A DNA stretch of 64,000 nucleotides from Falsiroseomonas frigidaquae (GTDB lineage Bacteria > Pseudomonadota > Alphaproteobacteria > Acetobacterales > Acetobacteraceae): contig NZ_JAAVTX010000001.1 in assembly GCF_012163145.1 (NCBI RefSeq), positions 1 to 64,000 on the forward strand, read 5' to 3'. A model generated the notes under the pieces. That model saw only the letters and a list, made by a program, of their open reading frames with translations. It was not told the DNA's origin and did no database searches. Positions 2,860-53,324 of the stretch are shown here, in pieces (the first letter of the stretch is position 1; each line of letters starts with the position of its first letter). The position numbers and the translations under genes were made by a program.

Positions 2860-4035
2860 ATGCCCCGCGCCTTTCCACCACCCACGGCATTGTCCTCGGC
2901 CTTCCTGGCCGCGCTGATCGGCTTCGGCGGCACCGTGCCGCTTGTCGTGCAGGCATTGCGCGGCCTGGGTGCATCGGTCGAGCAGACCGGGTCCGCCGTC
3001 ACCGCGCTTTGCCTGGGCATCGGGCTCGCGGGCATCGCGCTGTCCGCCCGCCTTCGGATGCCCGTCGTGCTCGCCTGGTCCACGCCCGGGGCCGCCTTGC
3101 TGGGGGCGGCCACGCCGGGCCTGTCCTGGCCGACGACGATCGGCGTCTTTCTCGCCGCCTCCCTGATGATGATGACGCTGGGCCTTGTCCCCGTGCTCGG
3201 GCGCCTGGCGGAACGGATTCCCCCGGCGATCGCCTCCGCCATGCTCGCGGGCGTGTTGCTGCCCTTCTGCCTCGCGCTTTTCCGCATAGCGGGGGTGGAC
3301 CCGCTGCTCGTCATGGTCCTGCTCGTGGTCTTCATCGCGGCACGGCGGCGCGTGCCACTCTATGCGCTGCTCATCGCGCTGGGCGCTGGAATCGCACTGA
3401 CGCTGCTGCGCGGCGACCTTGCCGGGCTGCCCGCGGGCGCGACCTTCGGCGCACTGATCGCTACGGCGCCGGCTTTCGATGTCAACGCCATCCTCAGCAT
3501 CGGCCTGCCGCTGTTCGTCGTGACACTGGTGTCGCAGAACCTTCCCGGCCTCGTGGTGCTGAAGGCCGCGGGCTACGAGGCGAAGGCGGCGCCGCTGCTG
3601 ATCGGCACCGGTCTCGCCAGCGCGGCCGCGGCGCCGTTCGGCGCGCATGCGGTGAACCTGGCCGCGATCACGGCCGCCATCTGCACCAGCGAGGAAGCGC
3701 ACCCGGATCATGACCGGCGCTGGACCGTCGGGGTCATCTATGGCGGCTTCTACCTTCTGCTCGCCCTTTTCGCGCCCGGCCTGGTGCGGCTGTTCCTGGC
3801 GCTTCCGCCATCGGTTATCGCCGCATTGACCGGCCTGGCGCTGATTCCCGCCCTGACAGGGGCGATCGAGGCGATGCTGGGGCCGAACCAGAACCGCGAC
3901 CCGGCCATGCTCACCTTCCTGGCCACCGCCTCGGGTCTCACCCTGTACGGCCTGGGTGCCGCCTTCTGGGGACTGGCCGCCGGCTTTGCCGCGCTCGCCA
4001 TCCGGGTATGGCTGAAACCGCATCGCGCCCGCTGA
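2860..4035 (+). CDS. benE: BenE-type benzoate/H+ symporter
   Basis: 391 residues, almost entirely hydrophobic, with about 11-12 membrane segments. The family signature is present: AWSTPGAALL in the first third and GAHAVNLAAITAAICTSEEAHPD in the C-terminal half. BenE proteins take up benzoate or related aromatic acids by proton symport in the inner membrane. It lies 132 bases after the secreted esterase in the same direction, so ester cleavage outside and aromatic acid uptake is a reasonable reading, although no benzoate dioxygenase genes are in view. Substrate specificity is inference. Confidence 0.85.
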   Translation: MPRAFPPPTALSSAFLAALIGFGGTVPLVVQALRGLGASVEQTGSAVTALCLGIGLAGIALSARLRMPVVLAWSTPGAALLGAATPGLSWPTTIGVFLAASLMMMTLGLVPVLGRLAERIPPAIASAMLAGVLLPFCLALFRIAGVDPLLVMVLLVVFIAARRRVPLYALLIALGAGIALTLLRGDLAGLPAGATFGALIATAPAFDVNAILSIGLPLFVVTLVSQNLPGLVVLKAAGYEAKAAPLLIGTGLASAAAAPFGAHAVNLAAITAAICTSEEAHPDHDRRWTVGVIYGGFYLLLALFAPGLVRLFLALPPSVIAALTGLALIPALTGAIEAMLGPNQNRDPAMLTFLATASGLTLYGLGAAFWGLAAGFAALAIRVWLKPHRAR

Positions 4036-18214: not shown

Positions 18215-18895
18215 TCAGGTCTTGCACCACATCCGCATCAGGTTGTGGTAGCAGGCGGTCAGGCCCAGCACGCTGGGATGGTCATCAGGCACCGCCATCC
18301 GCATCTGGATGATCGACATGTCCATCTCGAACATCAGGCGGCGCTGCCGGTCGTCGTCGATCATCGACTGGGTCCAGAAGAAGGACGCCCACCGGCTGCC
18401 GCGCGTCACCGGGTTGACGCGGTGCAGGCTGGTCGCCGGGTAGATCACCATGTCACCGGCCGGCAGCTTCACGGACTGCGCGCCATAGGTGTCCTCGACC
18501 ACCAGCTCGCCGCCCTCATATTCCTCGGGCGGCGTGAGAAACAGCGTGGAGGACACGTCCGTCCGCATGCGGCCGCCGCCCGGCAGGGCACGTATCGCGT
18601 TGTCGACATGGGTGTCGAAGGTCATGCCCACATCGTAGCGGTTGAACATCGGCGGATAGACGCGCAGCGGCAGCACGGCGGAGGCAAACAGCGGGCTGCG
18701 GTTGATCGCCCGCAGCACCACCTCCCCCAATTGGCGCGAGGCGGCGGAGTTTTCCGGCACCTGCAGGTTGAGCTTCACCTTGGCGGATTGCTCGCCCGCG
18801 GTGGCGCGGCCATCCACCCAATCGGCGCTTTCCAGCCTCTGCCGGCACTGTGCGACCTCCTCGGCCGTCAGCACGTTCGGGATATGCACCAGCAT
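18215..18895 (-). CDS. piuC: PKHD-type Fe(II)/2-oxoglutarate hydroxylase PiuC/YbiX
   Basis: 226 residues, exactly the usual length, starting at an ATG with GGAGGAGA six bases upstream. The double-stranded beta-helix iron ligands are HxD in [10 protein letters not shown] and the distal histidine in [13 protein letters not shown], whose arginine binds 2-oxoglutarate. In enterobacteria and pseudomonads this gene follows the catecholate receptor gene (fiu-ybiX, piuA-piuC) and is iron-repressed; the same arrangement is seen here, 105 bases downstream of the receptor. Its substrate is not firmly known in any organism. Confidence 0.92.
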
Positions 18896-19000
18896 CGCGA
18901 TTCTCCTCCGCTGCCGCAGCCTATTCCGCCGCCGGCGTGGGGCCGGCAAGCGGAAAGGCGGCGCCGGGCCGCGCGGCCCGGTGGCCCTGGACCCGTGCGA

Positions 19001-21250
19001 TCAGAAGTTGGTGGACAGCGTCATGGTGACCGCCCGCCCGGTCCCCAGCGCGGCGCGGCCGCTGGAGACGTGGGTGTAGTTGCGGTGGTCGGTCAGGTTG
19101 TAGCCGTTCACGCGCAGCAGCAGGTTCTGGTTGAGGCGGTGTGAAACGAAGGCGTCGAGCGAGAAGCTCTCCGGCACTTCCTGGCTGTTGGCGGCATTCA
19201 GGAAGATCCGGCTCGCCCAGGTGACACCGCCGCCGACCGTCAGGTTCAGCTTCTGGCCCTGGTTGAATTCATAGGCGGTCCACAGCGCGGCCGATTGCTC
19301 CGGCACCAGCTGGATCGGCTTGCCGACATTGGCGGGCGTGGTGGAACGCGTCGTCTCGCTGTCGGTGTAGCTGTAGCGCGCATTCAGCGTCCAGGCGGGG
19401 GTGATGCTGCCGGTCGCGCCGATGTCGATGCCGCGCACTTCCTGCCGGTCGCCCGATGTGAAGGTGGCGCCGGTCAGCGCATCGGTCTCCGTCGCGTTGT
19501 TCTTGGTGATCTGGTAGGCGGCCGCGCTCAGGCCCAGCCTTCCGCCGAGGAAGGCACCGCGTGCGCCGATCTCGTAGATGTCGTTCCGCTCCGGCTCGAG
19601 CTGGGTGTTGTTGACATTGGCCTGGCCCGGCTGCGTGGCGAAGTTGGAGCCCGGCGCGAAGGAGGACTGCGCGTAGGAGAAGTAGAAGGTGTAGTCGCGC
19701 GTCGGCTCCCAGATCACGGCGCCGCGCGGATCGACGAAGCTGTTGTCGGCATTCAGCTCGGTCGGTGACACGCCCGGGCCGAAGGCCTGATAGTCCGTCT
19801 GGAAGCGGTTCCAGCGTACGCCGCCAAGGACGGAGAGTTGCGGCGTCAGCCACAGCCGTTCGCTGGCGAAGACGCCGACGGCGGTGGTCTGCGCGCGGCG
19901 CGTGGCATTCGCCGCGGTCGAGCGCGTGTAGCTGTAGGAGGTATCGTTGTCGGGCTCGAAGAAGTTGCCGCGGAAGGCCGATCGGTCGGCGCCGTAGCTG
20001 TAGCCGGTGCGCTCGAAATCCTCGTACCAGCCATCTACGCCCACCGTCGCCTCATGCCGCAGCGAGCCGGTGTTGAAGCGCGCCACCGCGGTGGTCACGT
20101 TCTGCACGCCCCAGGTGCTGGAATCATAGGGCGATCCCGCGCCGGAGTAGGTGTATCCGGGCGTTCCGGTACGATTGAAGAAGCCGGTCGCACAATCCGC
20201 GGTGCAGCCGATGATGCTGTAGCTGAAGGACCGGTCCTGGATGCCCGCGCGCGTGTCGTTGTAGATGGTCAGCCAGTCCGTCGCCCGGTGTTGCAGGCGC
20301 GCGGTGAGGCGGTCCACCGTCGTCTTGTCGCGGTCATTCGGCGTGCCGAGCCAGGTGCGGCGGTCCAGGCCATACTCCGTGATCGGGCGGCCGACGGTGG
20401 CGCCGGGGCGCGTCAGGACCGGCACGCCGGTGTCGGTCGGCTCGTCATACTGGTAGTGCAGGTATTCCAGCGTGAAGGTGGTGTCGGTGCCCAGGCCGAA
20501 GGCGATGGAGGGCGCGATGCCCCAGCGCTCGCCCCACGGCATGTCCCGGCCGGCGAGCCGCGAAGTCTGGCCCATCAGGTTCAGGCGCACCGCCGCCGTG
20601 TCGCTGATCTGGTAGTTGCCATCGACGGTCGAGCGGAAGAACGGCCCCATGCCGGCGGTGGCATCTGCGTTGAAGGAATTGCCGAGGCGCGCGGTGCGGC
20701 TCACCACGTTCACCGTGCCTCCCGCGGAACCGGCGCCGAAGGTCTGGCCGGACGGGCCGAGCAGCGCCTGGACTTCCTCGAAGGTGAAGGCATCGCGGCG
20801 GAAGGTGCCGAAATCACGCAGGCCGTCCACATACAGGTCGTTCTGCGCGTTGAAGCCGCGGATGCGGATCTGGTCGCCATTGACGCCGCCATTGCCCTCA
20901 CCGACCGAGGAGGTGATGCCGGGCACGTTGCGCAGTGCCTGCTCCAGCGTGGTCACGTTCTGCTGCTGCAGCACTTCCCGCGGCACCACCTGGATGGTCT
21001 GCGGAATGCTCTGGATCGGCCCTGACAGGCGGCCGAGGCCGGTCTCGCCGCGCAGCGTATTTTCCGGCCGGTCGCCGACCACGCTGATCCCCGGCAGGCG
21101 CACCGCCTGGCTGGCTTCCGGCTCGGCCTGCGCCTGCGGCGAGGTCGCGGTCTGGGCCGAGGCGCCGCCACCCAGCATCATGCCCGCCGCGAGGCTGGCA
21201 CCGAAGGCCGTGTTGGATACGATCATGCGCAAGGTGGGCTTGGCGGTCAT
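19001..21250 (-). CDS. fiu: TonB-dependent catecholate siderophore receptor (Fiu-type)
   Basis: 749 residues. A signal peptide ends near ASAQT, a TonB-box-like segment (LPGISVVGD) follows, then the plug domain (SIPQTIQVVPREVLQQQN, NVPGITSSVGEGNGG, DQIRIRGFNAQNDLYVDGLRD) and a 22-strand barrel ending in the C-terminal phenylalanine (LSTNF). The plug is closest to Fiu/PiuA-type receptors for monomeric and linear catecholates. The ATG at 21250 has GGGGAG about eight bases upstream; a GTG directly before it is also possible. It is followed by piuC and preceded by a Fur-box-like site at 21315-21333, and it faces a siderophore assembly operon. Confidence 0.93.
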   Translation of the reverse strand: MTAKPTLRMIVSNTAFGASLAAGMMLGGGASAQTATSPQAQAEPEASQAVRLPGISVVGDRPENTLRGETGLGRLSGPIQSIPQTIQVVPREVLQQQNVTTLEQALRNVPGITSSVGEGNGGVNGDQIRIRGFNAQNDLYVDGLRDFGTFRRDAFTFEEVQALLGPSGQTFGAGSAGGTVNVVSRTARLGNSFNADATAGMGPFFRSTVDGNYQISDTAAVRLNLMGQTSRLAGRDMPWGERWGIAPSIAFGLGTDTTFTLEYLHYQYDEPTDTGVPVLTRPGATVGRPITEYGLDRRTWLGTPNDRDKTTVDRLTARLQHRATDWLTIYNDTRAGIQDRSFSYSIIGCTADCATGFFNRTGTPGYTYSGAGSPYDSSTWGVQNVTTAVARFNTGSLRHEATVGVDGWYEDFERTGYSYGADRSAFRGNFFEPDNDTSYSYTRSTAANATRRAQTTAVGVFASERLWLTPQLSVLGGVRWNRFQTDYQAFGPGVSPTELNADNSFVDPRGAVIWEPTRDYTFYFSYAQSSFAPGSNFATQPGQANVNNTQLEPERNDIYEIGARGAFLGGRLGLSAAAYQITKNNATETDALTGATFTSGDRQEVRGIDIGATGSITPAWTLNARYSYTDSETTRSTTPANVGKPIQLVPEQSAALWTAYEFNQGQKLNLTVGGGVTWASRIFLNAANSQEVPESFSLDAFVSHRLNQNLLLRVNGYNLTDHRNYTHVSSGRAALGTGRAVTMTLSTNF

Positions 21251-21314
21251 CACTCAACTCCCCTGAGTCGCGGGGCGCGGATGCACTCCCGACGGGCGGG
21301 CGGAGCATTCATGC

Positions 21315-21333
21315 AATTAAGAGTCATTCGCAA
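21315..21333. promoter_or_regulatory. Fur-box-like site upstream of the TonB receptor
   Basis: AATTAAGAGTCATTCGCAA, about 65 bases before the receptor start. It shares the CATTCGCAA core with the site at 31554-31574 and TTCGCA with those at 22596 and 25066. Assignment to Fur is by similarity to the family consensus and by the iron-related genes it precedes. Confidence 0.5.
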
Positions 21334-21416
21334 GGACACTTCGTAACACGACGCCGCTTCAGGGCGCGGACCGGCGCGGGTGTGACATTCCAGCAACGTC
21401 GAAGCGCCGCATCCTG

Positions 21417-22514
21417 CTAGCGGCCCGTCCAGATGATGCGCGGGCCGATATCGCCCAGCGCGCGGCAGCCGGTCAGCGCCATCGCCACCTCGAACTCGCC
21501 GCGCAGGATCTGCACCGCATGCGCGACCCCGGCGGGGCCCGCCACCGCCAGGGCGAAGACATAGGGCCGGCCGATCATCACCGCCGCGGCACCCAGCGCC
21601 AGCGCCTTCAGCACGTCGGTGCCCCGGCGGATGCCGCCATCCACGATCAGCGGAACTTGCCCGCGGACGGCGGCGGCGATCGCCGGCAGGATCTCGATGG
21701 TCGCGGGCTGCGAATCCAGCACCCGCCCGCCATGGTTGGAGACGATCAGCCCATCCGCCCCTTCCCGGATGGCGCGTTCCGCATCCTCCGGCGCCGTGAT
21801 TCCCTTGACCAGCAGCGGCAGCTTCGTCGTCGCGCGCAGCCGGGCGAAATCTTCCCAGCGCGCGCCGCTGTCGATGAAGCCGCCGAACACCAGGCTTTCC
21901 CCCAGCCCTGCACGCGGCATCGGCCCGGGCCGCGCGCCGCGCAGATGTACGGCCTCCCCCAGCAGCGCGGGCGTCACGCCGGCGCGCTGTTCGCGGTTGC
22001 GGAAGCCGCTGACCGGCGCGTCAGCGGTCACGACGATGGCCTGCGCCCCCGCCCGTTCCGCGCGCGCCAGCAGCGCCCGGGTGAAGTCGCGGTCATGTTG
22101 CATGTAGAGCTGGAACCAGAAGCGCCCCCTGGCCGCAGCGGCGATCTCCTCGACCGGGCAATCGGCCTCCGTGCTGACAACCAGGCAGGCCCGCGCGCCG
22201 GCCGCGCCGACGGCGGTGGCGATCTCTGCCTGCGGGCAGGCCAGGCGCTGATGCGCCACCGGGGCGAGCAGGATTGGGTGCTCGAAATGCGCGCCGAACA
22301 GCGTCTGCCCGGTGCCGCCACCGCGCAGATCCGCCAGCACGCGGCCCTGGAGCCGGATCGCGTCATAGGCCGCGCGGTTGTGACGCAGGGTCAGCTCATC
22401 CGCCGCGCCACCGGCGACATAGGCCCAGGCCGCGGCCGTCATCCGCGTCTCGGCATGGCGTTCGTAATCGGCGAGCGAGACGGCATCCGCCGGGATCTGG
22501 AAGGCGTCGGACAT
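21417..22514 (-). CDS. FMN-dependent alpha-hydroxy-acid oxidase/dehydrogenase
   Basis: 365 residues of the glycolate oxidase/lactate dehydrogenase/mandelate dehydrogenase family. Seen are AWAYVAGGAADELTLRHN, the FMN site PILLAPVAHQRL, QLYMQHDR, the catalytic SNHGGRVLDSQP histidine-arginine region, DGGIRRGTDVLKALALGA and GRPYVFALA at the end. These enzymes oxidise 2-hydroxy acids to 2-oxo acids. It is divergent from the M20 hydrolase across a Fur-box-like site, placing it in the iron island. No siderophore pathway with this step is obvious; oxidation of a hydroxy acid precursor or carbon source under iron stress are possibilities. Confidence 0.88.
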   Translation of the reverse strand: MSDAFQIPADAVSLADYERHAETRMTAAAWAYVAGGAADELTLRHNRAAYDAIRLQGRVLADLRGGGTGQTLFGAHFEHPILLAPVAHQRLACPQAEIATAVGAAGARACLVVSTEADCPVEEIAAAARGRFWFQLYMQHDRDFTRALLARAERAGAQAIVVTADAPVSGFRNREQRAGVTPALLGEAVHLRGARPGPMPRAGLGESLVFGGFIDSGARWEDFARLRATTKLPLLVKGITAPEDAERAIREGADGLIVSNHGGRVLDSQPATIEILPAIAAAVRGQVPLIVDGGIRRGTDVLKALALGAAAVMIGRPYVFALAVAGPAGVAHAVQILRGEFEVAMALTGCRALGDIGPRIIWTGR

Positions 22515-22595
22515 GGCGCATCCTTAATGTCGGCGCGTCCGGCGGACCGGCGGAACCCATGGCTTTGTGCTTGCCGATCCGGCCAACTGCAAGTA

Positions 22596-22617
22596 GCACG
22601 CATTATTATTCGCATTA
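22596..22617. promoter_or_regulatory. Fur-box-like site between the oxidase and M20 genes
   Basis: GCACGCATTATTATTCGCAT, directly upstream of the M20 hydrolase start and 80-100 bases upstream of the divergent oxidase. The 14-base core ATTATTATTCGCAT is identical to the one at 25066-25092. It could control both directions. Confidence 0.55.
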
Positions 22618-22633
22618 CCCGGTGACCTGCCCC

Positions 22634-23848
22634 GTGGACACCCCGCTTCCTGCCCTGCTTGCACGCCACGAGGCCGAGCTGACGGAAATCCGTCACGACC
22701 TGCACCGTCACCCCGAACTCGGCTTCCAGGAAAGCCGCACCGCGGCGCTGGTCGCGGCGAAGCTGCGCGGCTGGGGCATTGCGGTGACGGAGGGCATCGC
22801 CCGCACCGGCGTGGTCGGCACCCTGCATGGCCGGCGCGGCCCCGGCGGGGGGAGGATCGGCGCCATCGCGCTGCGCGCCGACATGGACGCCCTGCCGATC
22901 CAGGAGGCGACGGGTGCCGCCCATGCCTCCGCCACGCCCGGGGTGATGCATGCCTGCGGGCATGACGGGCACACCGCCATGCTGCTGGGCGCGGCGCGCC
23001 ACCTGGCGGAGCATCCGGATTTCCACGGCACCGTGCATTTCATCTTCCAGCCGGCCGAGGAAGGCCTGGCCGGTGGCCGGCTGATGATCGAGGAAGGCCT
23101 GTTCGATCGCTTCCCCGCCGATGCCGTCTTCGGCCTGCACAACGAGCCGGGCCTGGCGCTGGGCCGCTTCGGGCTGCGCGCCGGGCCGATGCTGGCCAAT
23201 GTCGATGGCTGGTCGGTGCGCTTCCGCGGCACCGGCGGCCATGGCGCCGTGCCACACCGCGCCACAGACCCAACCCAGCCCATGGCGCAGTTCATCGGCA
23301 CGCTGCAGAGCGTGATCGGCCGCAACATCCCGGCCGGCCAGACCGCCGTGCTCAGCATCGGCCACGTTGCCGGCGGCGATGCGCGGGCGCCGAATGTGAT
23401 CCCCGCGGAGGTCTTCGTCTCCGGCACCGGCCGTTCCTTCCTGCCCGCGGCGCGGGAGGTGATGGAACGCCGGCTGCGCGAACTCGCCGCCGGCTGCGCC
23501 ATGGCGCATGGCTGCACGGTGGAGGTCGACTACCAGCACGGCTATCCGGCCCTGGTGAACACGCCGGCGGAGGTCCGGCTGGCCGCCCGCGCCGCCGCGG
23601 CGGTGGCGGGGCGCGATGCGGTGGATGACAATTATCCGCCGATCACCGCCGGCGAGGATTTCGCCTATATGCTGCAGCAGCGGCCCGGCGCCTTCATGCT
23701 GGCGGGCAACGGCTTCGCGCCGGATGGCAGCTACCACCACGTCCACACGCCGCATTTCGACTTCAATGACCGGCTGCTGCCGCTCGGCGCGGCCTACTGG
23801 GTCAGCCTGGTCGCGCACGCCCTGGGCGATGCGATGCGCGAGGGATGA
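22634..23848 (+). CDS. M20D amidohydrolase (hippurate-hydrolase/aminoacylase type)
   Basis: 404 residues from a GTG at 22634 (another GTG lies 12 bases upstream; neither has a clear Shine-Dalgarno site, so a nearly leaderless message is possible). The metal centre is intact: MHACGHDGHTAM, PAEEG, LHNEPG and the late HTPHFDFND histidine. M20D enzymes cleave N-acyl amino acids such as hippurate and indole-acetyl amino acids. Because the gene sits directly under a Fur-box-like site and is coupled to an exporter and the aryl-serine assembly genes, cleavage of the aryl-serine amide of the siderophore is an attractive role, but this is inference. Confidence 0.85.
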   Translation: MDTPLPALLARHEAELTEIRHDLHRHPELGFQESRTAALVAAKLRGWGIAVTEGIARTGVVGTLHGRRGPGGGRIGAIALRADMDALPIQEATGAAHASATPGVMHACGHDGHTAMLLGAARHLAEHPDFHGTVHFIFQPAEEGLAGGRLMIEEGLFDRFPADAVFGLHNEPGLALGRFGLRAGPMLANVDGWSVRFRGTGGHGAVPHRATDPTQPMAQFIGTLQSVIGRNIPAGQTAVLSIGHVAGGDARAPNVIPAEVFVSGTGRSFLPAAREVMERRLRELAAGCAMAHGCTVEVDYQHGYPALVNTPAEVRLAARAAAAVAGRDAVDDNYPPITAGEDFAYMLQQRPGAFMLAGNGFAPDGSYHHVHTPHFDFNDRLLPLGAAYWVSLVAHALGDAMREG

Positions 23849-25068
23849 CGGAGGGCACCCCGGCGGAGGACACTCCGGCCGCGCGCGACCCGGTCCTGCC
23901 GGTGCTGATGGTGGCGGTGTTCTGCGGCAGCCTGGCGATGATGGCCTTCGTGGCGCTGATCGGCCCGGTGGCGCGCGTCGCCGGGTTGCAGCCCTGGCAG
24001 GCCGGGCTGGCCGTCACAGCATCCGGCGTCGCCTGGATGCTGGGCGCGCGGCCCTGGGGGCGGGCGAGCGACCGCCATGGCCGTCGCGCCGTGCTGCTGG
24101 CCGGCGCGCTCGGCTTCACCCTGGCCTATTGGGCGCTGTGCCTGTTCATCGATGCGATGCTGCGCTGGCAGGTGCCGGTGACGCTCGCCTTCCTCGGCCT
24201 GGTGGCCGGGCGGGCGCTGGTCGGCGGCGCCTATGCCGCCATCCCGGCCGCCGGCATGGCGCTGATCGCGGACCGTACCGAACCCGCAAAGCGGGCCCAG
24301 GCGATGGCGCGGCTCGGCACCGGCAGCGGTGCCGGGCTGGTCGCCGGCCCGGCGCTGGCCGCGCTGCTGGTGCCCTATGGGCTGAGCGTGCCGCTGATCG
24401 CCACCGCCGCGCTGCCGCTGCTCGCCTGCCTCGCCTTGTGGTGGCTGATCCCCGCCACGCCGCCGAAGCCGAGCCCGCCCCGGCGGCGGCTGAAGCTGAC
24501 CGACCGCCGGCTGCGCCAGCCACTGGCGATCGGCTTCAGCGCCATGTTCAGCGTCTCCATCGCGCAGGTCAGCATCGGCTTCTTTGCGATGGACCGGCTA
24601 GGCCTGCCGCCGGAGGATGCGGCGCGTGCAGCCGGCACCGCGCTGATGATGGTGGGCATCGCGCTGGTGCTGTCGCAATCCGTGGCGGCGCGCTGGCGCA
24701 TCGCGCCGGAGCGGATGATCCGCCTGGGCGCGCTGGCGGCGGCGCTGGGCTTCGGCAGCGTGGTGCTGGCAAGCCAGGCCTGGATGCTCGCCGCCTGCTA
24801 CTTCGTCGCAGCGCTCGGCATGGGCTGGGTCTTCCCGGCCTTCTCGGCGATGACCGCCAATGCGGTGGAGCCCGGCGAGCAGGGTGCGGCGGCGGGCGCG
24901 GCGGGGGCGGCGCAGGGCCTCGGCATGGTGGTCGGGCCGGTGGCGGGCACGCTGCTTTATGCGGTGGCGCCGGCGCTGCCCTATGTGCTCGCCAGCGCGC
25001 TGCTGCTCGGCGTCTCACTGCCGCTGTGGCGGCAGGCGCGCGACCCGCTTGCCGTTCCGTCCGCGTGA
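23845..25068 (+). CDS. MFS transporter, probable siderophore exporter
   Basis: 407 residues with about 12 membrane segments and the loop 2-3 MFS motif (GRASDRHGRRAVLLAGA). It overlaps the stop of the M20 gene by four bases (ATGA), so the two are translationally coupled. The size and position, between the M20 gene and the ligase-NRPS operon, fit an EntS-like exporter of the catecholate product. Drug or precursor transport cannot be excluded from sequence. Confidence 0.82.
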   Translation: MTEGTPAEDTPAARDPVLPVLMVAVFCGSLAMMAFVALIGPVARVAGLQPWQAGLAVTASGVAWMLGARPWGRASDRHGRRAVLLAGALGFTLAYWALCLFIDAMLRWQVPVTLAFLGLVAGRALVGGAYAAIPAAGMALIADRTEPAKRAQAMARLGTGSGAGLVAGPALAALLVPYGLSVPLIATAALPLLACLALWWLIPATPPKPSPPRRRLKLTDRRLRQPLAIGFSAMFSVSIAQVSIGFFAMDRLGLPPEDAARAAGTALMMVGIALVLSQSVAARWRIAPERMIRLGALAAALGFGSVVLASQAWMLAACYFVAALGMGWVFPAFSAMTANAVEPGEQGAAAGAAGAAQGLGMVVGPVAGTLLYAVAPALPYVLASALLLGVSLPLWRQARDPLAVPSA

Positions 25069-25092
25069 TATATAATGATTATTATTCGCATC
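25066..25092. promoter_or_regulatory. Fur-box-like site upstream of the siderophore assembly operon
   Basis: A 27-base AT-rich block, beginning TGATATATAATGATTATTAT and ending in TTCGCATC, in an otherwise very GC-rich region. The TAATGATTATTATT part resembles the classic Fur consensus and could overlap a -10 element (TATAAT at 25071-25076). It starts right at the MFS stop codon and lies 70 bases before the ligase start. Confidence 0.65.
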
Positions 25093-25162
25093 TGCTGACG
25101 CACGCGCCGCCAGATGCTCTCTCTGCCCCTCGGGCAGGCGCCGTTTGGACGGGTGATCTGCC

Positions 25163-26800
25163 GTGCTCCCACTGAAACAGGTCTGGCCCGCCGAAGCCGC
25201 CACCCGCTACCGGGCCGCCGGCCACTGGCGGGGCGAGACCTTCCCCGGCTTCCTGCGCCAACGCGCCGCCGCGCATCCCGGCGCCCTTGCCATCATCGGC
25301 GGCACGCAGCGCTGGAGCTACGCCGAGCTGCAGGCCCGCGCCGAGGCCGCCGCCGCCGGCTTTTTGGCGCTCGGCCTGCGACCGGGCGACCGCGTGGTCG
25401 TGCAGCTGGGGAACATCCCCGAATTCTTCACGGCGGTGTTCGGCCTGTTCCGCGCCCAGATGGTCCCGGTCTATGCGCTGCCGGCGCATCGCCAGACGGA
25501 GATCAGCCACTTCCTCCGCAAATCCGAGGCTGCCGGCTATATCTGCGCCGATCGCGGCCCGGATGGCTTCGACTACCGCGCACTGGCGCGGGACCTGCGC
25601 GCGGCCGTCCCCGCGCTGCGCCATGCGGTGGTGGTGGGCGATGCAGCGGAGTTCACGCCCTTCGAGCAGCTCGATGGCAACCGTGCCGCGCTGCCGGGCG
25701 ACCCGGACCCTGCCGCCGTCGCCTTCCTGCAGATATCCGGCGGCACCACGGGCCTGTCGAAGCTGATCCCGCGCACGCATGACGACTACATCTACAGCTT
25801 CCGCGCCAGCAACGAGATCTGCGGCGTCACGCAGGACAGCGTGCACCTGATCGCCCTGCCGGCGGCGCACAACTTCCCGATGAGCTCGCCCGGCCACATG
25901 GGCACGCTGCATGCCGGCGGCCGCGTGGTGCTCAGCCCCTCCCCCGCGCCCGATGTCGCCTTCCCGCTGATCGCGCGGGAACGGGTGACCATCAGCGGCC
26001 TGGTGCCGCCGCTGGCGCTGCTATGGGCCGAGGCGGCGCCACGCACGCCGCACGACCTGTCGAGCCTGGAGGTGCTGCTGGTCGGCGGCGCCAAGCTGAC
26101 CCCGGAAGCGGCGCGGCGGGTGCAGGATGCGCTGCCCTGCAAGCTGCAACAGGTGTTCGGCATGGCCGAGGGCCTGGTGAACTACACGCGCCTGGACGAT
26201 CCCGATGCGCTCGTGCTGGAAACCCAGGGCCGGCCGATCAGCGCGGATGACGAGGTGCTGATCCTGGACGATCTGGGCCGCCCCGTGCCGGAAGGCGAGG
26301 CCGGGCACCTGCTGGCGCGCGGGCCCTACACCATCCGCGGCTACCACAATGACGAGGCCGCCAATGCGCGGTCCTTCACGCCGGATGGATTCTACCGCAC
26401 CGGCGACATCGTGAAGCGAACGCCGGAGGGCTACCTGGTGGTGCAGGGCCGCGCCGGCGACCACATCAACCGCGCCGGCGAGAAGATCTCCGCCGAGGAG
26501 ATCGAGGATCATCTCCTCGCCCATCCCAACGTCTTCGACGCGGCGGTGGTCTCCGTACCGGATGAATTCCTCGGCGAGCGGAGCTGCGCCTTCATCATCC
26601 CGCGTGGCGACAAGCCGCGCGCCGTGGCGCTGAAGACCTGGATGCGCGGCCGCGCCATCGCGGAGTTCAAGGTTCCCGACCAGATCGTTCTGGTCGAGGC
26701 CTTCGAGACCACGGCCGCCGGCAAGATCAGCCGCAAGGAATTGCGCGCCCGCCTGCGCGCCCGGCTGCTGGCCGAGGAATCCGGGCAGCAAGCGGATTGA
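25163..26800 (+). CDS. entE: 2,3-dihydroxybenzoate-AMP ligase (EntE/DhbE-like)
   Basis: 545 residues, the normal length for stand-alone aryl-acid adenylating enzymes. Core motifs: [19 protein letters not shown] (A3), [18 protein letters not shown] (A5), [24 protein letters not shown] and the C-terminal lysine in TAAGKISRK. Aryl-pocket residues read HNFPMSSPG and GLVNYTR: the serine and valine at DhbE positions 240 and 337 predict dihydroxybenzoate rather than salicylate, which has Cys and Leu. It loads the aryl group on the carrier protein encoded 13 bases downstream. Start is a GTG; its ribosome binding site is weak. Confidence 0.92.
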
Positions 26801-26813
26801 GGGAGTGTGCCCC

Positions 26814-27060
26814 GTGATGCAGGCGAAGCGGCCCTGGACGCATGCGCGCATGCGCGCCGACCTGGCTCGCGCGGTACGGATTCCGCCCGATGAGCTGGAG
26901 GACGGCGACAACCTGATCGACCTCGGCCTGGATTCCATGCGCGCGATGACCCTGCTGACCCGCTGGGCGGAGGATGGGCTGCAGCTGGAACTCGCCGCCG
27001 TGGCCGAGAAGACGACGCTCGGCGCCTGGTGGTCGCTGGCGGAGCGGGCGCTGCAACGCG

Positions 27061-27068
<8 letters not shown>
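26814..27068 (+). CDS. Free-standing aryl carrier protein
   Basis: About 84 residues: a four-helix carrier domain with the phosphopantetheine site LGLDSMRAMTL. In enterobactin and bacillibactin systems this domain is fused to isochorismatase (EntB/DhbB); here it stands alone. GGGAG lies eight bases before the GTG at 26814 (ATG at 26817 is the alternative). It is between the aryl ligase and the NRPS and overlaps the NRPS start by eight bases, so it is the obvious acceptor for the ligase and aryl donor to the condensation domain. Confidence 0.85.
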
Positions 27069-30968
<3,900 letters not shown>

Positions 30969-30972
<4 letters not shown>

Positions 30973-31559
30973 AGCCGATGCAATGGCGCGACACGCTCGA
31001 ACGCTACGGCCAGGTGACGCGGCTGCTGCATTGGGGCATGGCGGCGATCCTGCTGTGGCAGATCACCGGCATGGCGCTGCGCCTGGTCCTCGGGCGCACG
31101 CCGCTGATGGCGTTCTGGGTCGGCACGCACCAGTCGGTCGGCACCGTGCTGCTGCTGCTGATCCTGCTGCGCCTGCTCTGGGCCTGGATCAACCGTGGCC
31201 GTCGGCCGGCGCAGCCAAGATCCTGGGCAGGTCGCGCGGCGCGGCTCGGCCATGGCGCTTTGTACGGCCTGATGCTCCTCATCCCGTCCCTGGCCCTGCT
31301 GCGGGCATTCGGCAACGGCCGAGGCTACGCCTTCTTCGGCCATCAGGTCGTGCCGCGCGGCGGCCCGCGCATCGACTGGATGTCGGCACCGGCGGACCTG
31401 CTGCATGGCCGGCTCGCCTGGCTGCTGCTGGCGCTGATCCTCGGCCACGTGCTGATGGTCGTGCTGCATCACTTCATCTGGCGCGACGGCACGTTGCGGC
31501 GGATGGCGGGCCGGATGAGGGGCCGGATGGCGGATTGCCAGGACCAGATTAGCGGTTGA
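30969..31559 (+). CDS. Cytochrome b561-family membrane protein
   Basis: 196 residues with four membrane segments and haem-ligand histidines in the first (VTRLLHWGMAAILLW), second (VGTHQSVGTVLLLL) and last (LGHVLMVVLHHFIW) helices, the pattern of prokaryotic cytochrome b561. GTG at 30969 overlaps the NRPS stop (GTGA); ATG at 30978 is an alternative. Placement as the last gene of a siderophore operon suggests electron delivery to ferric siderophore or to a periplasmic step, which is inference. Such proteins otherwise serve respiratory or superoxide-related electron transfer. Confidence 0.82.
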
Positions 31560-31574
31560 TAATCATTCGCAACA
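31554..31574. promoter_or_regulatory. Fur-box-like site upstream of the YncE-like gene
   Basis: GTTGATAATCATTCGCAACA, overlapping the cytochrome stop codon and 33-53 bases before the next start. TGATAATCATT is a strong partial match to the Fur consensus, and CATTCGCAA recurs at 21315-21333. Confidence 0.6.
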
Positions 31575-31606
31575 CAGACCACCGACCGCATAGGAAGGCT
31601 TCCCCC

Positions 31607-32695
31607 ATGGCCAGAGATCCCTCGCGCCCCCCCGCCGGGCACCCCGCCCCGTCGCGGCGCCACCTGCTGGCGCTGATGGGCACCGGCCTCGCAGCCTCCG
31701 TGCTGCGCCCGCGCCTCGCCCTGGCGGCGCCCGCGGTGGAAAAGACCGTGCAGCCGGGCGCCGGCCTGTACGAGATCGTGGTCAGCTCCACCACCGGCCT
31801 CGTCCATGTCGCCAGCGTCGGCAAGCGTGGCGAGAACGCCGCGAAGATCCTGGGTCTCGACCCGCGGACGCTGGAGACGAAATCCAGCATCGAGCTGGGC
31901 GCCGAGGCCGCCTTTGGCATGGGCGTGAATGATCGCCGCGGCCTGCTGCTCGGCACCGCGACGCGCAGCGGTGCCCTGCTGGTGATCGATGCCCGCAGCG
32001 GCACCGTCCGCGCCCGCATCGCGGAGGGCGAGCGCGCCCATGTCCGCCAGGTGATCGCCGATGAGGCGAATGACCGGGCCTTCGTCACGGTGTTCGGCGG
32101 ACGTGGCCGGCCCAGCGCGATCTGGGTCGCCGATACCGCCACCAACGCCATGGCCACCGTCATCACCGAAGGCCTCGATGGCGGCATCATCGGTGCGGCA
32201 TACGACCCGGCCGGCGACCGGCTGTTCGCCACGGCGCTGCAGTCGAACGAGATCGTCGAGGTCAGCCTGGCACGCAAGGCGGGCATCCGGCGCTTTGCAT
32301 CGGGCGGCGAGGGTCCGATCAACATCGTCCATGACGCCACCAGCGGCCGGCTGTTCTGCGCCAACCAGAAGACCGGCACGCTGACGGTGCTGAACGCCGC
32401 GTCGGGCGAGCTGGTGAAGGCGATCGAGACCGGTGCGGGCGCGCTGGGCGTGACGCTGTCGGCGGATGGCGCGCTGGCCTATGTGGCCAACCGCCAGGCC
32501 GGCACGGTGAGCGTGGTCGATACGCGCGGCCTCGTGGTGGTCGCCAACCTCGCCACCGGCACCCATCCGAACACCGTCGCCGTCGATCGCCGCACCGGCC
32601 TGGCCTATGTCAGCAACAAGGCCCGTTCCGCGCCGCGTGGACAGCCGCCGGTCGAGGATCCGAACGGCGATACCGTGAGCCTCATCCGCATCTGA
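31607..32695 (+). CDS. YncE/YVTN-family beta-propeller protein, Tat-exported
   Basis: 362 residues. The leader SRRHLLALMGTGLAASVLRP followed by ALAAPA is a classical twin-arginine signal. The mature chain is a seven-bladed propeller with repeats such as VNDRRGLLLGTATRSGALLVIDA and ADGALAYVANRQAGTVSVVD. E. coli YncE, the best-known relative, is a periplasmic protein repressed by Fur and encoded beside a TonB receptor; here a Fur-box-like site precedes the gene at the end of the siderophore island. The start has AGGAAGG eight bases upstream. Molecular function is unknown for the family. Confidence 0.88.
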   Translation: MARDPSRPPAGHPAPSRRHLLALMGTGLAASVLRPRLALAAPAVEKTVQPGAGLYEIVVSSTTGLVHVASVGKRGENAAKILGLDPRTLETKSSIELGAEAAFGMGVNDRRGLLLGTATRSGALLVIDARSGTVRARIAEGERAHVRQVIADEANDRAFVTVFGGRGRPSAIWVADTATNAMATVITEGLDGGIIGAAYDPAGDRLFATALQSNEIVEVSLARKAGIRRFASGGEGPINIVHDATSGRLFCANQKTGTLTVLNAASGELVKAIETGAGALGVTLSADGALAYVANRQAGTVSVVDTRGLVVVANLATGTHPNTVAVDRRTGLAYVSNKARSAPRGQPPVEDPNGDTVSLIRI

Positions 32696-32967: not shown

Positions 32968-33057
32968 ATGCTGGACCTCATCCTAGGCGGCGCCGTCGCG
33001 CTCGGCCTGCTCGGCTATCTCCTGTGGGCGCTGCTGCGTCCGGAGGATCTGCGATGA
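32968..33057 (+). CDS. kdpF: KdpF, small subunit of the K+-transporting ATPase
   Basis: 29 residues with one membrane helix ([20 protein letters not shown] then ALLRPEDLR). The length, the helix and the terminal LLRPE are typical of KdpF, which stabilises the KdpABC complex. Its stop overlaps the kdpA start (ATGA) and the GGAGG preceding kdpA lies within its last codons. Confidence 0.88.
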
Positions 33058-34739
33058 CCCTGATCGGCTGGGCGCAGATCGCCCTGCTTCTCACCCTCGT
33101 GCTCGCCACCGCCGTGCCGCTCGGCCGCTATATCGCGGCGGTGGCGGAGGGGCGCGTGCGAATCCTGCACCCCATCGAGGCGGTGCTGTACCGCGCCGCC
33201 GGCGTGGACCCGGCGCAGGGCATGGGCTGGCAGCGTTATGTCCTGGCCATGCTGGCGCTGAACGCGGCGGGCTTCCTGCTGCTGTACGTGCTGCTGCGCG
33301 CGCAGGCATGGCTGCCGCTGAATCCGCAGGGCCTGCCGGGGCTTTCGCCATGGCTCGCCTTCAACACCGCCATCAGCTTCGTCACCAACACCAATTGGCA
33401 GGCCTATAGCGGCGAGACGGCGATGTCGCATTTCAGCCAGATGGCGGGCCTCGCGGTGCAGAACTTCCTTTCCGCCGCCACCGGCATCGCCCTGGCCCTG
33501 GCGCTGACGCGCGCGCTGGCGGCCGGGGGCGTGCAGGCGCTGGGGAATTTCTGGGCGGACCTGGTGCGGATCACGCTGTACCTGCTGCTGCCGCTGACCC
33601 TGCTGCTGGCGCTGCTGCTGGTGGCGCAGGGCGTGCCGCAGACGCTGACCGGTGCCGCCGCCATTGAGGGCGGCGGCGCCATCCCCCTCGGACCCGCCGC
33701 CTTCCAGGTCGCCATCAAGCAGCTCGGCACCAATGGCGGCGGCTTCTTCGGCGTGAACTCGGCGCATCCGCTGGAAAATCCCACGGCCATCGCCAACCTG
33801 GCGCAGCTCTGGGCCATTCTCGTCATTCCCTTCGCGCTCACGCTGACCTTCGGGCGCATGGTTGGCGACCGGCGCCAGGGCTGGGCGCTGTTCGCGGTGA
33901 TGATGGTCTTCGTCATCGCCGGCACCGCACTGACCTACGCGGCGGAAGCCGCCGGCAATCCGCCGCACATCGCCGCCGGTCTGAACCCCGCCGATGGCAA
34001 CATGGAGGGCAAGGAGGTGCGGCACGGCATCGCCATGTCGGCGCTGTGGGCCGTGGCCACCACCGGCGCGTCCAATGGCAGCGTGAACGCCATGCATGAC
34101 AGCTTCACGCCGCTGGGCGGCCTGGTGCCGATGTTCCTGATCCAGCTTGGCGAGGTGCTGCCCGGCGGCGTCGGCTCCGGCCTGTACGGCATGCTGATCT
34201 TCGTGCTGCTGGCGGTGTTCGTCGCCGGGCTGATGGTGGGGCGAACGCCCGAGTATCTCGGCAAGAAGATCCAGGCGCGGGAGGTGAAGCTGGCGATGCT
34301 GGCGGTGCTGGTGGTGCCGGCCTGCGTGCTCGGCTTCAGCGCGCTGGCCGCCCTGCTGCCGGTGGCGCTGGCCAGCGTGCAGGATGCCGGGCCGCACGGG
34401 CTTTCGGAGATCCTCTACGCCTATTCCTCGGCGGCGGGGAACAACGGCTCCGCCTTCGCCGGCTTCGGCGCCGATACGCCCTTCATGAACACCACGCTCG
34501 GCATCGCCATGCTGCTCGGCCGCTACGCCATCATCGTGCCGGTGCTGGCGATCGCCGGCAGCCTGGCGGCCAAGCCACGCGCCCCGGCGTCTTCCGGCAG
34601 CTTCCCGACGCATGGGCCGCTGTTCGTCGGGCTGCTCTGCGGCGTCATCCTGATCCTGGGCGGGCTGCAATTCCTGCCCGCGCTCTTCCTCGGCCCCATC
34701 GCGGAGCAGTTCGCGCTGCTGGCCGGCCAGACCTTCTGA
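33054..34739 (+). CDS. kdpA: KdpA, K+-binding channel subunit
   Basis: 561 residues. All four pseudo-symmetric selectivity loops are visible: [37 protein letters not shown] and [11 protein letters not shown]. KdpA forms the high-affinity potassium pathway in the inner membrane. It overlaps kdpF by four bases and is followed five bases later by kdpB. Confidence 0.97.
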
Positions 34740-34744
34740 GGCAA

Positions 34745-36769
34745 ATGGACATGCTCACAAACGCCCAGGCGCCGGGCCGGCCGCTGCTGGCCCGCGCCTT
34801 CGGGGACGCCGTGCGGAAGCTCAATCCCGCGCAGCTCATCCGCAACCCGGTGATCTTCGTGACGGAGGTGGTCTCCATCCTCGTCACGCTGCTCGCGATC
34901 CTCGCCGCCTTTCGCGGCGATCGCTGGGGCTTCCAGGCCGGCATCGCCGCCTGGCTCTGGCTGACCGTGCTGTTCGCCACCTTCGCCGAGGCGATCGCCG
35001 AGGGCCGCGGCCGGGCGCGCGCCGAAAGCCTGCGCCGCGCCCGCGGCGAGGCGCGCGCGAAGCTGCTGCTCCGCGCCGATGATCGCAGCCTGTGGCAGCC
35101 GCGCGATGCCGCCGAGCTGCGCGAGGGCGAGATCATCCTGGTCGAGGCCGGGGACCTGATCCCCGCCGATGGCGAGGTCATCCAGGGCATCGCCAGCGTG
35201 AACGAGGCCGCCGTCACCGGCGAAAGCGCGCCCGTCATCCGCGAATCCGGCGGCGACCGCAGCGCCGTCACCGGCGGCACCACGCTGGTCTCGGACTGGC
35301 TGGTGGTGCGCGTCACCGCGGCGCCCGGCAACAGCTTCATGGACCGCATGATCGCGCTGGTCGAAGGGGCCTCGCGCCAGAAGACACCGAACGAGATCGC
35401 GCTGGATATCCTGCTGGCCGGCATGACCATCGTGTTCCTCATCGCGGTGGCGAGCATCGTCGGCATGGCCAGCTTCCACGCGACGCCGCCATCCGTGCCG
35501 GTGCTGGCCGCGCTGCTGGTCACGCTGATCCCGACCACCATCGGCGGGCTGCTGTCGGCCATCGGCATTGCCGGCATGGACCGGCTGGTGCGCTTCAACA
35601 TCGTCGCCACCTCGGGCCGCGCGGTGGAGGCGGCGGGCGATGTGGATGTGCTGCTGCTGGACAAGACCGGCACCATCACGCTCGGCAACCGCCAGGCCGC
35701 CAGCTTCCTGCCCGCACCCGGCGTGACGGAACGCGACCTGGCGGAGGCCGCGGTGCTCGCCTCATTGGCCGACGAGACGCCGGAGGGTCGCTCGATCCTG
35801 GTGCTGGCGCGGGATCGCCACGGCATCGTGGCGGAGCCGGTGCCGCCGGACGCCGCCATCATCCCCTTCACCGCGCAGACCCGCCTCTCCGGGCTGGACC
35901 TGCCCGGCCGCGGGCGCTTCCGCAAGGCGGCGGCCGATCGCATGGCGGCGGAAACCCCGGCCGCGCTGGCCGAGGCGGTGGCGCGCATCGCCCGCGCCGG
36001 TGCCACGCCGCTGGTGGTGGCGCGGGACGGCCAGGTGCTCGGCGCCATCGCGCTGAAGGACATCATCAAGCCCGGCATCCGCGAACGCTTCGACGCGCTG
36101 CGCCGCATGGGCATCCGCACCGTCATGGTCACCGGCGACAACCGCCTGACCGCCGCCGCCATCGCCGCCGAGGCGGGCGTCGATGATTTCCTGGCGGAAG
36201 CCACGCCGGAGGACAAGCTCGGCTACATCCGCGGCGCCCAGGCGGAGGGACGGCTGGTGGCGATGGCCGGTGACGGCACCAACGACGCGCCCGCCCTCGC
36301 CCAGGCCGATGTCGGGCTGGCGATGCAGACCGGCACCCAGGCGGCACGCGAGGCCGGCAACATGGTGGATCTCGACAGCGACCCGACCAAGCTGATCGAG
36401 GTGGTGGAGATCGGCAAGCAGCTGCTGATCACCCGCGGCGCGCTGACCACTTTTTCCATCGCCAATGACGTGGCCAAGTATTTTGCGATCCTGCCCGCAA
36501 TCTTCGTCGCGCAGTATCCGGGGCTGGCGGCGCTGAACGTGATGGGGCTCGCCAGCCCCGAATCCGCCATCCTGTCCGCCGTCATCTTCAACGCGCTGAT
36601 CATCGTGGCGCTGGTGCCGCTGGCGCTGCGCGGCGTCGGCCGGGCGGGGCTGGGCGCGGGCGCGCTGCTGCGGCGGAACCTGCTGGTCTATGGGCTGGGA
36701 GGGCTGGTGGTGCCCTTCCTCGGCATCAAGGCCATCGACCTTTGTCTCACCCTGCTGGGGATCGTCTGA
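34745..36769 (+). CDS. kdpB: KdpB, P-type ATPase subunit
   Basis: 674 residues. The phosphorylation site is [13 protein letters not shown] (Asp near residue 305); the actuator motif is VTGESAPV; the hinge is [18 protein letters not shown]. It powers potassium uptake through KdpA. ATG codons at 34745 and 34751 are both possible starts. kdpC follows three bases after its stop. Confidence 0.97.
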
Positions 36770-52538: not shown

Positions 52539-53324
52539 ATGCAGATCCGCCTCGATGGCCACACCGCCCTGATCACCGGGGGGTCCAAGGGCCTCGGCCT
52601 TGCGATTGCCGAGAGCTATGTCGAATCGGGCGCCGCCGTGGCGCTGGTCGCCCGCGGCGCGGAAGCGCTGGAAGCCGCCAAGGCGCGGATCACGGGGAAA
52701 TTCCAGGGCGCCCGGGTCGCCGCCATCGCCGCCGATGTCGGCACCGCCGAGGGCTGCGCCCGCGCCGCGGCACAGGCCGCGTCAGAGCTCGGCCCGGTCG
52801 ACATCCTGGTGAACAATGCCGGCACCAGCCAGCGCGGCCCCTTCATGGAGGTGGATGACGCGCTGTGGCAGGCCGATCTCGACCTGAAGCTGTTCGCCGC
52901 CATCCGCCTGACCCGCGCCGTCTGGCCCGGCATGCAGGCGCGCGGCTGGGGCCGCATCATCAATGTGCTGAACATCGGCGCCAAGGCGCCGGCGGCCGGC
53001 GGCGCCCCCACCGCCGTCTCCCGCGCCGCGGGCATGGCGCTGACCAAGATCCTGGCCGGCGAGGGCGCACCGCACGGCATCCTGGTGAACGGCATGCTGG
53101 TCGGCATCATCGAGAGCGACCAATGGGTGCGCCGCCACGCCGCCGACCCGCGCGGCATCTCCTGGGAAGACTGGAAGGCGGAGCAGGGCAAGGCGGTGCC
53201 GATGGGCCGCATCGGCAAGGCCGAGGAATTCGCCGCCATGGCCACCTTCCTCGCCTCCGACCAGGGCGGCTACGTCACCGGCACGGCCATCAACGTCGAT
53301 GGCGGGCGCAGCCCCGTCGTCTGA
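52539..53324 (+). CDS. Short-chain dehydrogenase/reductase-fold protein lacking the usual YxxxK
   Basis: 261 residues. The Rossmann motif TGGSKGLGLAIAE, NNAG (VNNAGTSQRGP) and a C-terminal GGYVTGTAINVDGG are typical of classical SDRs. At the catalytic site the usual Tyr-x3-Lys is replaced: the segment reads PTAVSRAAGMALTK, so no tyrosine is present and arginine takes the lysine place. The protein may be a non-catalytic SDR or use another acid. Start 31 bases after tRNA-His; AGGAAAA lies about seven bases upstream. Confidence 0.85.
   Translation: MQIRLDGHTALITGGSKGLGLAIAESYVESGAAVALVARGAEALEAAKARITGKFQGARVAAIAADVGTAEGCARAAAQAASELGPVDILVNNAGTSQRGPFMEVDDALWQADLDLKLFAAIRLTRAVWPGMQARGWGRIINVLNIGAKAPAAGGAPTAVSRAAGMALTKILAGEGAPHGILVNGMLVGIIESDQWVRRHAADPRGISWEDWKAEQGKAVPMGRIGKAEEFAAMATFLASDQGGYVTGTAINVDGGRSPVV

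Follow-up and report, generated by a model that had tools for sequence, protein, structure and literature searches.

The locus at positions 18215 to 32695 of a 64,000-nucleotide stretch of Falsiroseomonas frigidaquae contig NZ_JAAVTX010000001.1 (the whole stretch is called the window here) retains the genes for assembly of a catecholate siderophore, and in our estimate, with a probability of about two in three, it represents a precursor-dependent system that obtains 2,3-dihydroxybenzoate (DHB) from outside. The known DHB synthesis genes seem to have been lost, so the cell probably must take DHB from its surroundings. A preliminary description of this locus had offered two options, that the DHB genes lie elsewhere in the genome or that a catechol taken up from outside is condensed with serine, and the second gains indirect support from selection on the intact assembly genes, from DHB-type motifs in the ligase, and from the co-occurrence of candidate supply genes.

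The absence of DHB synthesis was examined across the source genome, a 6.08-Mb draft in 19 contigs that is 97.9% complete. Family PF00425 covers isochorismate, anthranilate, and salicylate synthases. Its single member in this genome is TrpE by profile (561 bits, cut-off 517.7), and the best score of the EntC model TIGR00543, 180.7 bits against a cut-off of 224.75, falls on that same protein. The best of 71 matches to the EntA model TIGR04316 reaches 156.8 bits (cut-off 300), compared with 308-328 bits in the sister genomes introduced below. All but the three weakest of 11 isochorismatase-family matches were compared with the EntB protein of a sister locus (L028), and the best significant identity among these eight was 31%, versus 81% for a true EntB. 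The preliminary description was also right that the window itself holds no EntC, EntB, or EntA, the only match being a short-chain dehydrogenase of general type (52566-53306), to which the EntA model gives 102 bits against its cut-off of 300; the genome-wide check for entCBA that it called for is the one reported here. Judging from these profile searches, DHB genes elsewhere in the genome appear unlikely, subject to the draft state of the assemblies.

The same pattern extends to related genomes. Ligase loci were collected from named genomes (the best 80 of a longer list) and from 299 Acetobacteraceae genomes. Type I loci (L028, L131-L138) have the order YncE-EntC-ligase-EntB-carrier-synthetase-EntA-esterase (PF00756) and were found in nine genomes: G303 (identical in coordinates to G205), G293, G107, G269, G162, G016, G102, G236, and G159. 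Type II loci consist of ligase, carrier, and synthetase without EntC, EntB, and EntA at the locus; their seven genomes are the source of the window (G000), G299 (L018), Roseomonas sp. SXEYE001 (G202, identical in coordinates to G300; L019), Pararoseomonas indoligenes (G301; L020), Roseomonas rosea (G003, identical to G302; L021), G239 (L127), and G011 (L128). Both EntC and EntA score above their cut-offs in nine of nine type I genomes and in none of the seven type II genomes. Each type II genome has one PF00425 protein (G239 has two), none above the EntC cut-off; the TrpE identity was checked in G000. The EntC search covered all genomes other than that of L072, and the comparison of neighbouring genes all loci other than L026 and the 4-kb loci L098-L117. 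In the ligase tree (75 rows kept, 16 mostly actinobacterial rows omitted), the seven type II ligases form one supported clade (100/96) beside the nine of type I (100/99); a single loss is the simplest reading, since this clade sits among EntC-carrying lineages. The type I sister locus shares with type II the core order of ligase (73-76% identity), carrier, and synthetase; it differs in carrying the DHB synthesis genes and the PF00756 esterase, in having no M20 gene at the locus, and in the lack of an ATP-binding cassette (ABC) importer of the kind described below anywhere in the genome. Five further genomes with ligases 41-46% identical to that of the window (G085, G214, G046, G251, and G126) were assigned to neither type; in G085, the ligase gene has dhbA, dhbB, and dhbC next to it.

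Two candidate supply genes accompany the loss, and each type II genome possesses at least one of them (one scoring of this co-occurrence took at most five candidates per genome). The first is an M20D amidohydrolase of the aminoacylase/hippurase type, at about 22634..23848 on the plus strand of the window (start judged by eye), which matches TIGR01891 with 339.7 bits (cut-off 153.75). Its nearest solved proteins are YxeP, an indole-3-acetic acid-amino acid hydrolase homologue, an M20 peptidase, and an N-acyl-glutamine aminoacylase. No signal peptide was seen by eye, so the enzyme should be cytoplasmic, and we propose that it may free DHB from imported DHB-serine. It occurs in five of the seven type II genomes, namely those of the window and G301, without the importer, and G299, G202, and G239, together with it. 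The nearest relative outside this M20 clade (64-65% identity; L181:5509-7989) belongs to the EntC-positive G016, where it is divergent from an adjoining Peripla_BP_2 gene for whose product a siderophore-binding model scores best, though under its cut-off; no Fur-like site was found for this relative. M20 genes beside the catecholate loci L027, L029, L034, L035, and L058 were set aside as evidence, their proteins falling in other M20 clades. In two EntC-less loci, a gene for a TctC/Bug-type binding protein lies between M20 and the transporter of the major facilitator superfamily (MFS) or the ligase (L018:7521-8522 and L019:8860-9828).

The second candidate is a benzoate-type ABC importer, found in five of the seven type II genomes (G003 and G011, without M20D, and the three named above that have both). 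Among the 299 Acetobacteraceae genomes it is present in four, all of type II, and where it stands away from the locus it still has a Fur-like box. The closest structures of known ligand to its binding protein are the hydroxybenzoate-binding proteins of R. palustris (4evq, 4evs, 4ey3, 4eyg, and 4f06). The R. palustris importers serve aromatic catabolism, whereas those of type II genomes lie beside siderophore genes with Fur-like sites. The importer also precedes the ligase at four loci of Alcaligenaceae; EntC is encoded in the genomes of L064, L067, and L068 among these, and the importer was therefore rejected as an exclusive mark of EntC-less loci. It accompanies DHB siderophore loci in two families and, in Acetobacteraceae, the EntC-less kind only. 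In the window, a BenE-type benzoate transporter (2860-4035, 353 bits), possibly one more importer of aromatic acids, lies 15 kb upstream of the locus beside an IclR-type regulator, and the top-scoring Fur-like matches of the window all fall elsewhere.

Outside Acetobacteraceae, 11 ligase genomes have no EntC above the cut-off, of which only eight count as lacking EntA as well, because EntA is above its cut-off in G307 and G310 and nearly so in G304 (299 bits). A DctP-type binding-protein gene of the tripartite ATP-independent periplasmic (TRAP) class lies near the ligase in four Rhodobacteraceae loci (L044, L056, L066, and L075). This corresponds to four of seven EntC-less versus zero of five EntC-positive loci (p 0.07; one of these five, L046, is a shortened locus), and to three of six (the Rhodobacteraceae-type genomes among those eight) versus zero of five when L044 is dropped because its genome is G304 and may only have a gap; neither difference is significant. 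The link between TRAP importers and EntC-less loci of Rhodobacteraceae is suggestive only. The solved protein closest to the L056 binding protein, whose own model is weak (predicted local distance difference test score, pLDDT, 62), is 4paf (SPO1773; E 3e-71, the next at 1e-27), with a ligand which we take to be 3,4-dihydroxybenzoate.

From the computed results (the genes present, the missing EntC and EntA, the signs of selection, the shape of the clade, the co-occurring candidate supply genes, and the Fur-like sites), we infer the following mechanism. Catecholate fragments (DHB-serine or a similar DHB-amino acid) would enter through the Fiu-like receptor, and the cytoplasmic M20D enzyme would split DHB-serine into DHB and serine for reassembly. 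The ligase would load DHB onto the aryl carrier, the synthetase would join it to serine, and the thioesterase would release DHB-serine oligomers or the trilactone, to be exported by the MFS protein, with the whole set under iron control. In related genomes, the benzoate-type importer may bring in free hydroxybenzoate instead or in addition. The E. coli Fiu receptor binds the ferric complexes of DHB and DHB-serine as well as those of their dimeric and trimeric forms (PMC11005823). In its most specific form, to which we give somewhat less than even odds, the proposal describes a siderophore recycler: catecholates or DHB-serine of neighbours would be imported, the amide cut by the dedicated M20D enzyme (or free DHB acquired through the iron-regulated importer), and an own siderophore rebuilt, which would make synthesis obligately dependent on neighbours.

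Several observations weigh against dependence on outside DHB. The type II genomes appear to be draft assemblies, and L018 comes from a metagenome-assembled genome. Neither supply gene is universal, M20D being missing from two of the seven genomes; M20 enzymes are moreover common (eight at E<=1e-60 in the source genome), and their substrates are unreadable from sequence. The ABC importer is absent from the source genome, and it does not imply precursor dependence, because the genomes of L064, L067, and L068 have EntC. The sites ahead of the M20 operon in L018, L020, and L127 have scores of 13.7-14.7, which chance could produce (mean of 12.0 and maximum of 20.6 under the null), and directly ahead of this operon in L019 there is no Fur-like site. 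Fiu transports the dimer complex Fe(DHB-serine)2 and not monomeric ferric DHB or DHB-serine, as stated in PMC11005823. Finally, a DHB pathway of unknown enzymes would escape family searches.

This last point is the basis of an alternative in which DHB is made in the cell by a non-homologous route, for example, by hydroxylating salicylate or another aromatic acid, so that the pathway is complete and its enzymes are new. Our searches covered known families alone, and novel chelator biosynthesis is among the options named for such clusters in a 2026 eLife paper (PMC12971057). However, the recurrent neighbours that we identified are the importer, an esterase, siderophore uptake genes, and the amidohydrolase, which argues mildly against a new pathway within the linked and annotated families covered, and we consider such a route unlikely.

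The specificity of the assembly genes bears on a second alternative, in which the ligase works on a different imported aryl acid (a hydroxybenzoate of plant origin, 3,4-dihydroxybenzoate, or salicylate) and the siderophore made does not resemble enterobactin. It would fit the ligands given for the structures closest to the importer, which are 4-hydroxybenzoate and vanillate rather than 2,3-DHB. On the other hand, the pocket stretches of the ligase (25163..26800, plus strand) are the same as in the DHB-synthesizing sister loci and close to those of DhbE, by which we classify it as a DHB-AMP ligase of the EntE/DhbE type, and another substrate is in our view quite improbable. The score of this ligase to TIGR02275, 693 bits, is just under the cut-off of 723.55, as it is for six of the nine type I ligases that have entCBA. 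The synthetase (27061..30972, plus strand) has EntF as its top match, with 867 bits against an equivalog cut-off of 2400. Its condensation-adenylation-thiolation-thioesterase (C-A-T-TE) domains and adenylation code DVWHFSLVDK, which was read by eye and which we take to be a serine code, mark it as a probable serine-activating enzyme. Its condensation motif is HHxxxDG, compared with HHxxxDA in the nine type I synthetases (L028, L131-L138). VFCSGEAL, one of four motifs used for checking relatives, was unmatched in 11 of 19 synthetase rows, and the pattern used for the carrier motif gave no match in L127 and L128. At the start of the condensation domain (27084-27169), an in-frame 27-base unit is repeated 3.1 times (PLTAAQGG repeats), which suggests a recent expansion.

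The assembly genes also appear to have been maintained. Comparison of the window with the remaining type II loci gave ratios of nonsynonymous to synonymous differences (pN/pS) of 0.20-0.30 (ligase), 0.33-0.44 (synthetase), 0.26-0.38 (M20), and 0.31-0.62 (the short carrier); the ligase, synthetase, and M20 are under purifying selection. Internal stops were absent from the synthetase stretches of 16 Acetobacteraceae loci, and the L019 ligase stretch has a single stop, which falls at residue 542 of 543 and is its natural end. The locus has the composition of the precursor-dependent, equibactin-like type, with the aryl-acid synthase missing and the assembly genes intact. A decaying remnant, whose other genes are now disappearing in the wake of DHB synthesis, would account for the absence of three of the six classical EntA-F functions (EntA, EntB, and EntC), but it is very improbable given this selection at substantial ligase divergence (a synonymous divergence, dS, of 0.46-0.94 separates the window from the six other genomes), the uninterrupted synthetases, and the diversification of a single seven-genome clade after the loss. 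Rather, because the ligases group in a single clade, show purifying selection, and retain the pocket motifs of DHB-type enzymes, the type II cluster appears to have remained in use after DHB synthesis was lost. An ordinary split enterobactin locus with entCBA hidden in assembly gaps is scarcely credible even for a draft that is 97.9% complete, because EntC and EntA are both missing throughout the type II clade and both present throughout its sister.

The preliminary description had pointed to the absence of MbtH-like and Sfp-type genes. Neither is present at the locus, and MbtH is absent from the whole source genome, but an Sfp/HetI-type phosphopantetheinyl transferase of 221 amino acids is encoded elsewhere (L178:1168-1833, minus strand); it has PF01648 and the Sfp-class N-terminal domain, which place it in the Sfp/EntD class, and scores below the NCBIfam equivalog cut-offs. 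None of the 16 genomes tested has MbtH, and its absence is uninformative because these include nine with EntC and EntA; most of the 16 contain a single PF01648 protein. We therefore dropped both absences as a clue.

Four Fur-like sites, all on the plus strand, lie ahead of the receptor gene (21314..21335), about 16 bases ahead of the likely GTG start of the M20-MFS operon (22596..22617), ahead of the ligase-carrier-synthetase operon (25072..25093), and ahead of the YncE-like gene (31553..31574). When a matrix built from three of them was used to seek the fourth across 64 kb, the left-out site was the top remaining position in three of four cases; for 21314, the top position was the copy of the site that overlaps it on the opposite strand, and the left-out site came third. 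The plain Fur consensus with at most three mismatches gave eight matches versus 4.4 expected (at least eight in 9 of 100 shuffles) and is not significant alone. The four similar Fur-box-like sites reported earlier therefore stand out by the leave-one-out matrix.

Profile searches likewise recovered every gene named in that report and added two that it had overlooked, the M20D amidohydrolase and a flavin mononucleotide (FMN)-dependent alpha-hydroxyacid dehydrogenase (21417..22514, minus strand). Such a dehydrogenase adjoins catecholate loci three times, here, at L018:5158-6246, and at L060:17202-18284, the last having EntC. On the minus strand are also a PKHD-type Fe(II)/2-oxoglutarate hydroxylase, PiuC/YbiX (18215..18949; NF003975, 355 bits, cut-off 180), which probably starts inside this open reading frame, and the Fiu-like TonB-dependent ferric catecholate receptor (19001..21253), whose top NCBIfam model is Fiu (358 bits, under the equivalog cut-off of 686) and which is above the cut-off of the general siderophore-receptor model TIGR01783. 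On the plus strand, the proposed MFS exporter (23845..25068), the free-standing aryl carrier protein (26805..27068), and cytochrome b561 (30969..31559) were assigned by profile, the first and last with starts judged by eye; the YncE-like beta-propeller gene (31556..32695; NF052280, 126 bits, cut-off 400) probably starts at 31607. With these starts, the M20 stop overlaps the MFS start by 4 bases, the carrier overlaps the synthetase by 8, and the synthetase overlaps b561 by 4. A kdp potassium operon lies directly downstream (33024-36769), with KdpA assigned by profile and the E1-E2 ATPase behind it taken as KdpB from its position.

Compared with the enterobactin system (EntA-F), the locus shares the DHB-AMP ligase, aryl carrier, C-A-T-TE synthetase with a serine code, Fiu-like receptor, and Fur-like sites; it differs in that no EntC, EntA, or EntB-like protein was found in the source genome, in the free-standing carrier, in the lack of MbtH, and in having an M20D amidohydrolase whose operon has a Fur-like site. 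Outside supply of an aryl acid has been reported for equibactin of Streptococcus equi, for which salicylate had to be supplied in defined medium (PMC3672683). Both systems have an aryl-acid siderophore synthetase needing added aryl acid; equibactin differs in its salicylate, thiazoline-type synthetase, and location on a Gram-positive mobile element, and the available part of that paper mentions neither an aryl-acid importer nor an amidohydrolase. Siderophore degradation is treated in PMC11800396, and PMC3219685 was discarded as a precedent, since entA, entB, and entC are present there. Among titles and abstract openings found in the open-licence literature, none proposes an M20 enzyme or hydroxybenzoate importer for siderophore precursor supply, and none describes a clade-wide loss of DHB synthesis paired with candidate supply genes.

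The 2026 survey (PMC12971057) describes ten siderophore clusters in genomes without a chelator pathway and names fragments, outside precursors, and new chemistry as the options. In the seven-genome clade described here, the known precursor pathway is missing, selection acts on the assembly genes, and candidate supply genes accompany the loss, which turns the open question of the survey into a simple test, with Roseomonas rosea DSM 14916 and Pararoseomonas indoligenes SG15 among the named strains. If the proposal is true, mining rules that require EntA and EntC, as those of that survey do, would miss such producers. Siderophore synthesis itself could then be an auxotrophy, and the cross-feeding on which these bacteria would rely is unlike plain siderophore piracy.

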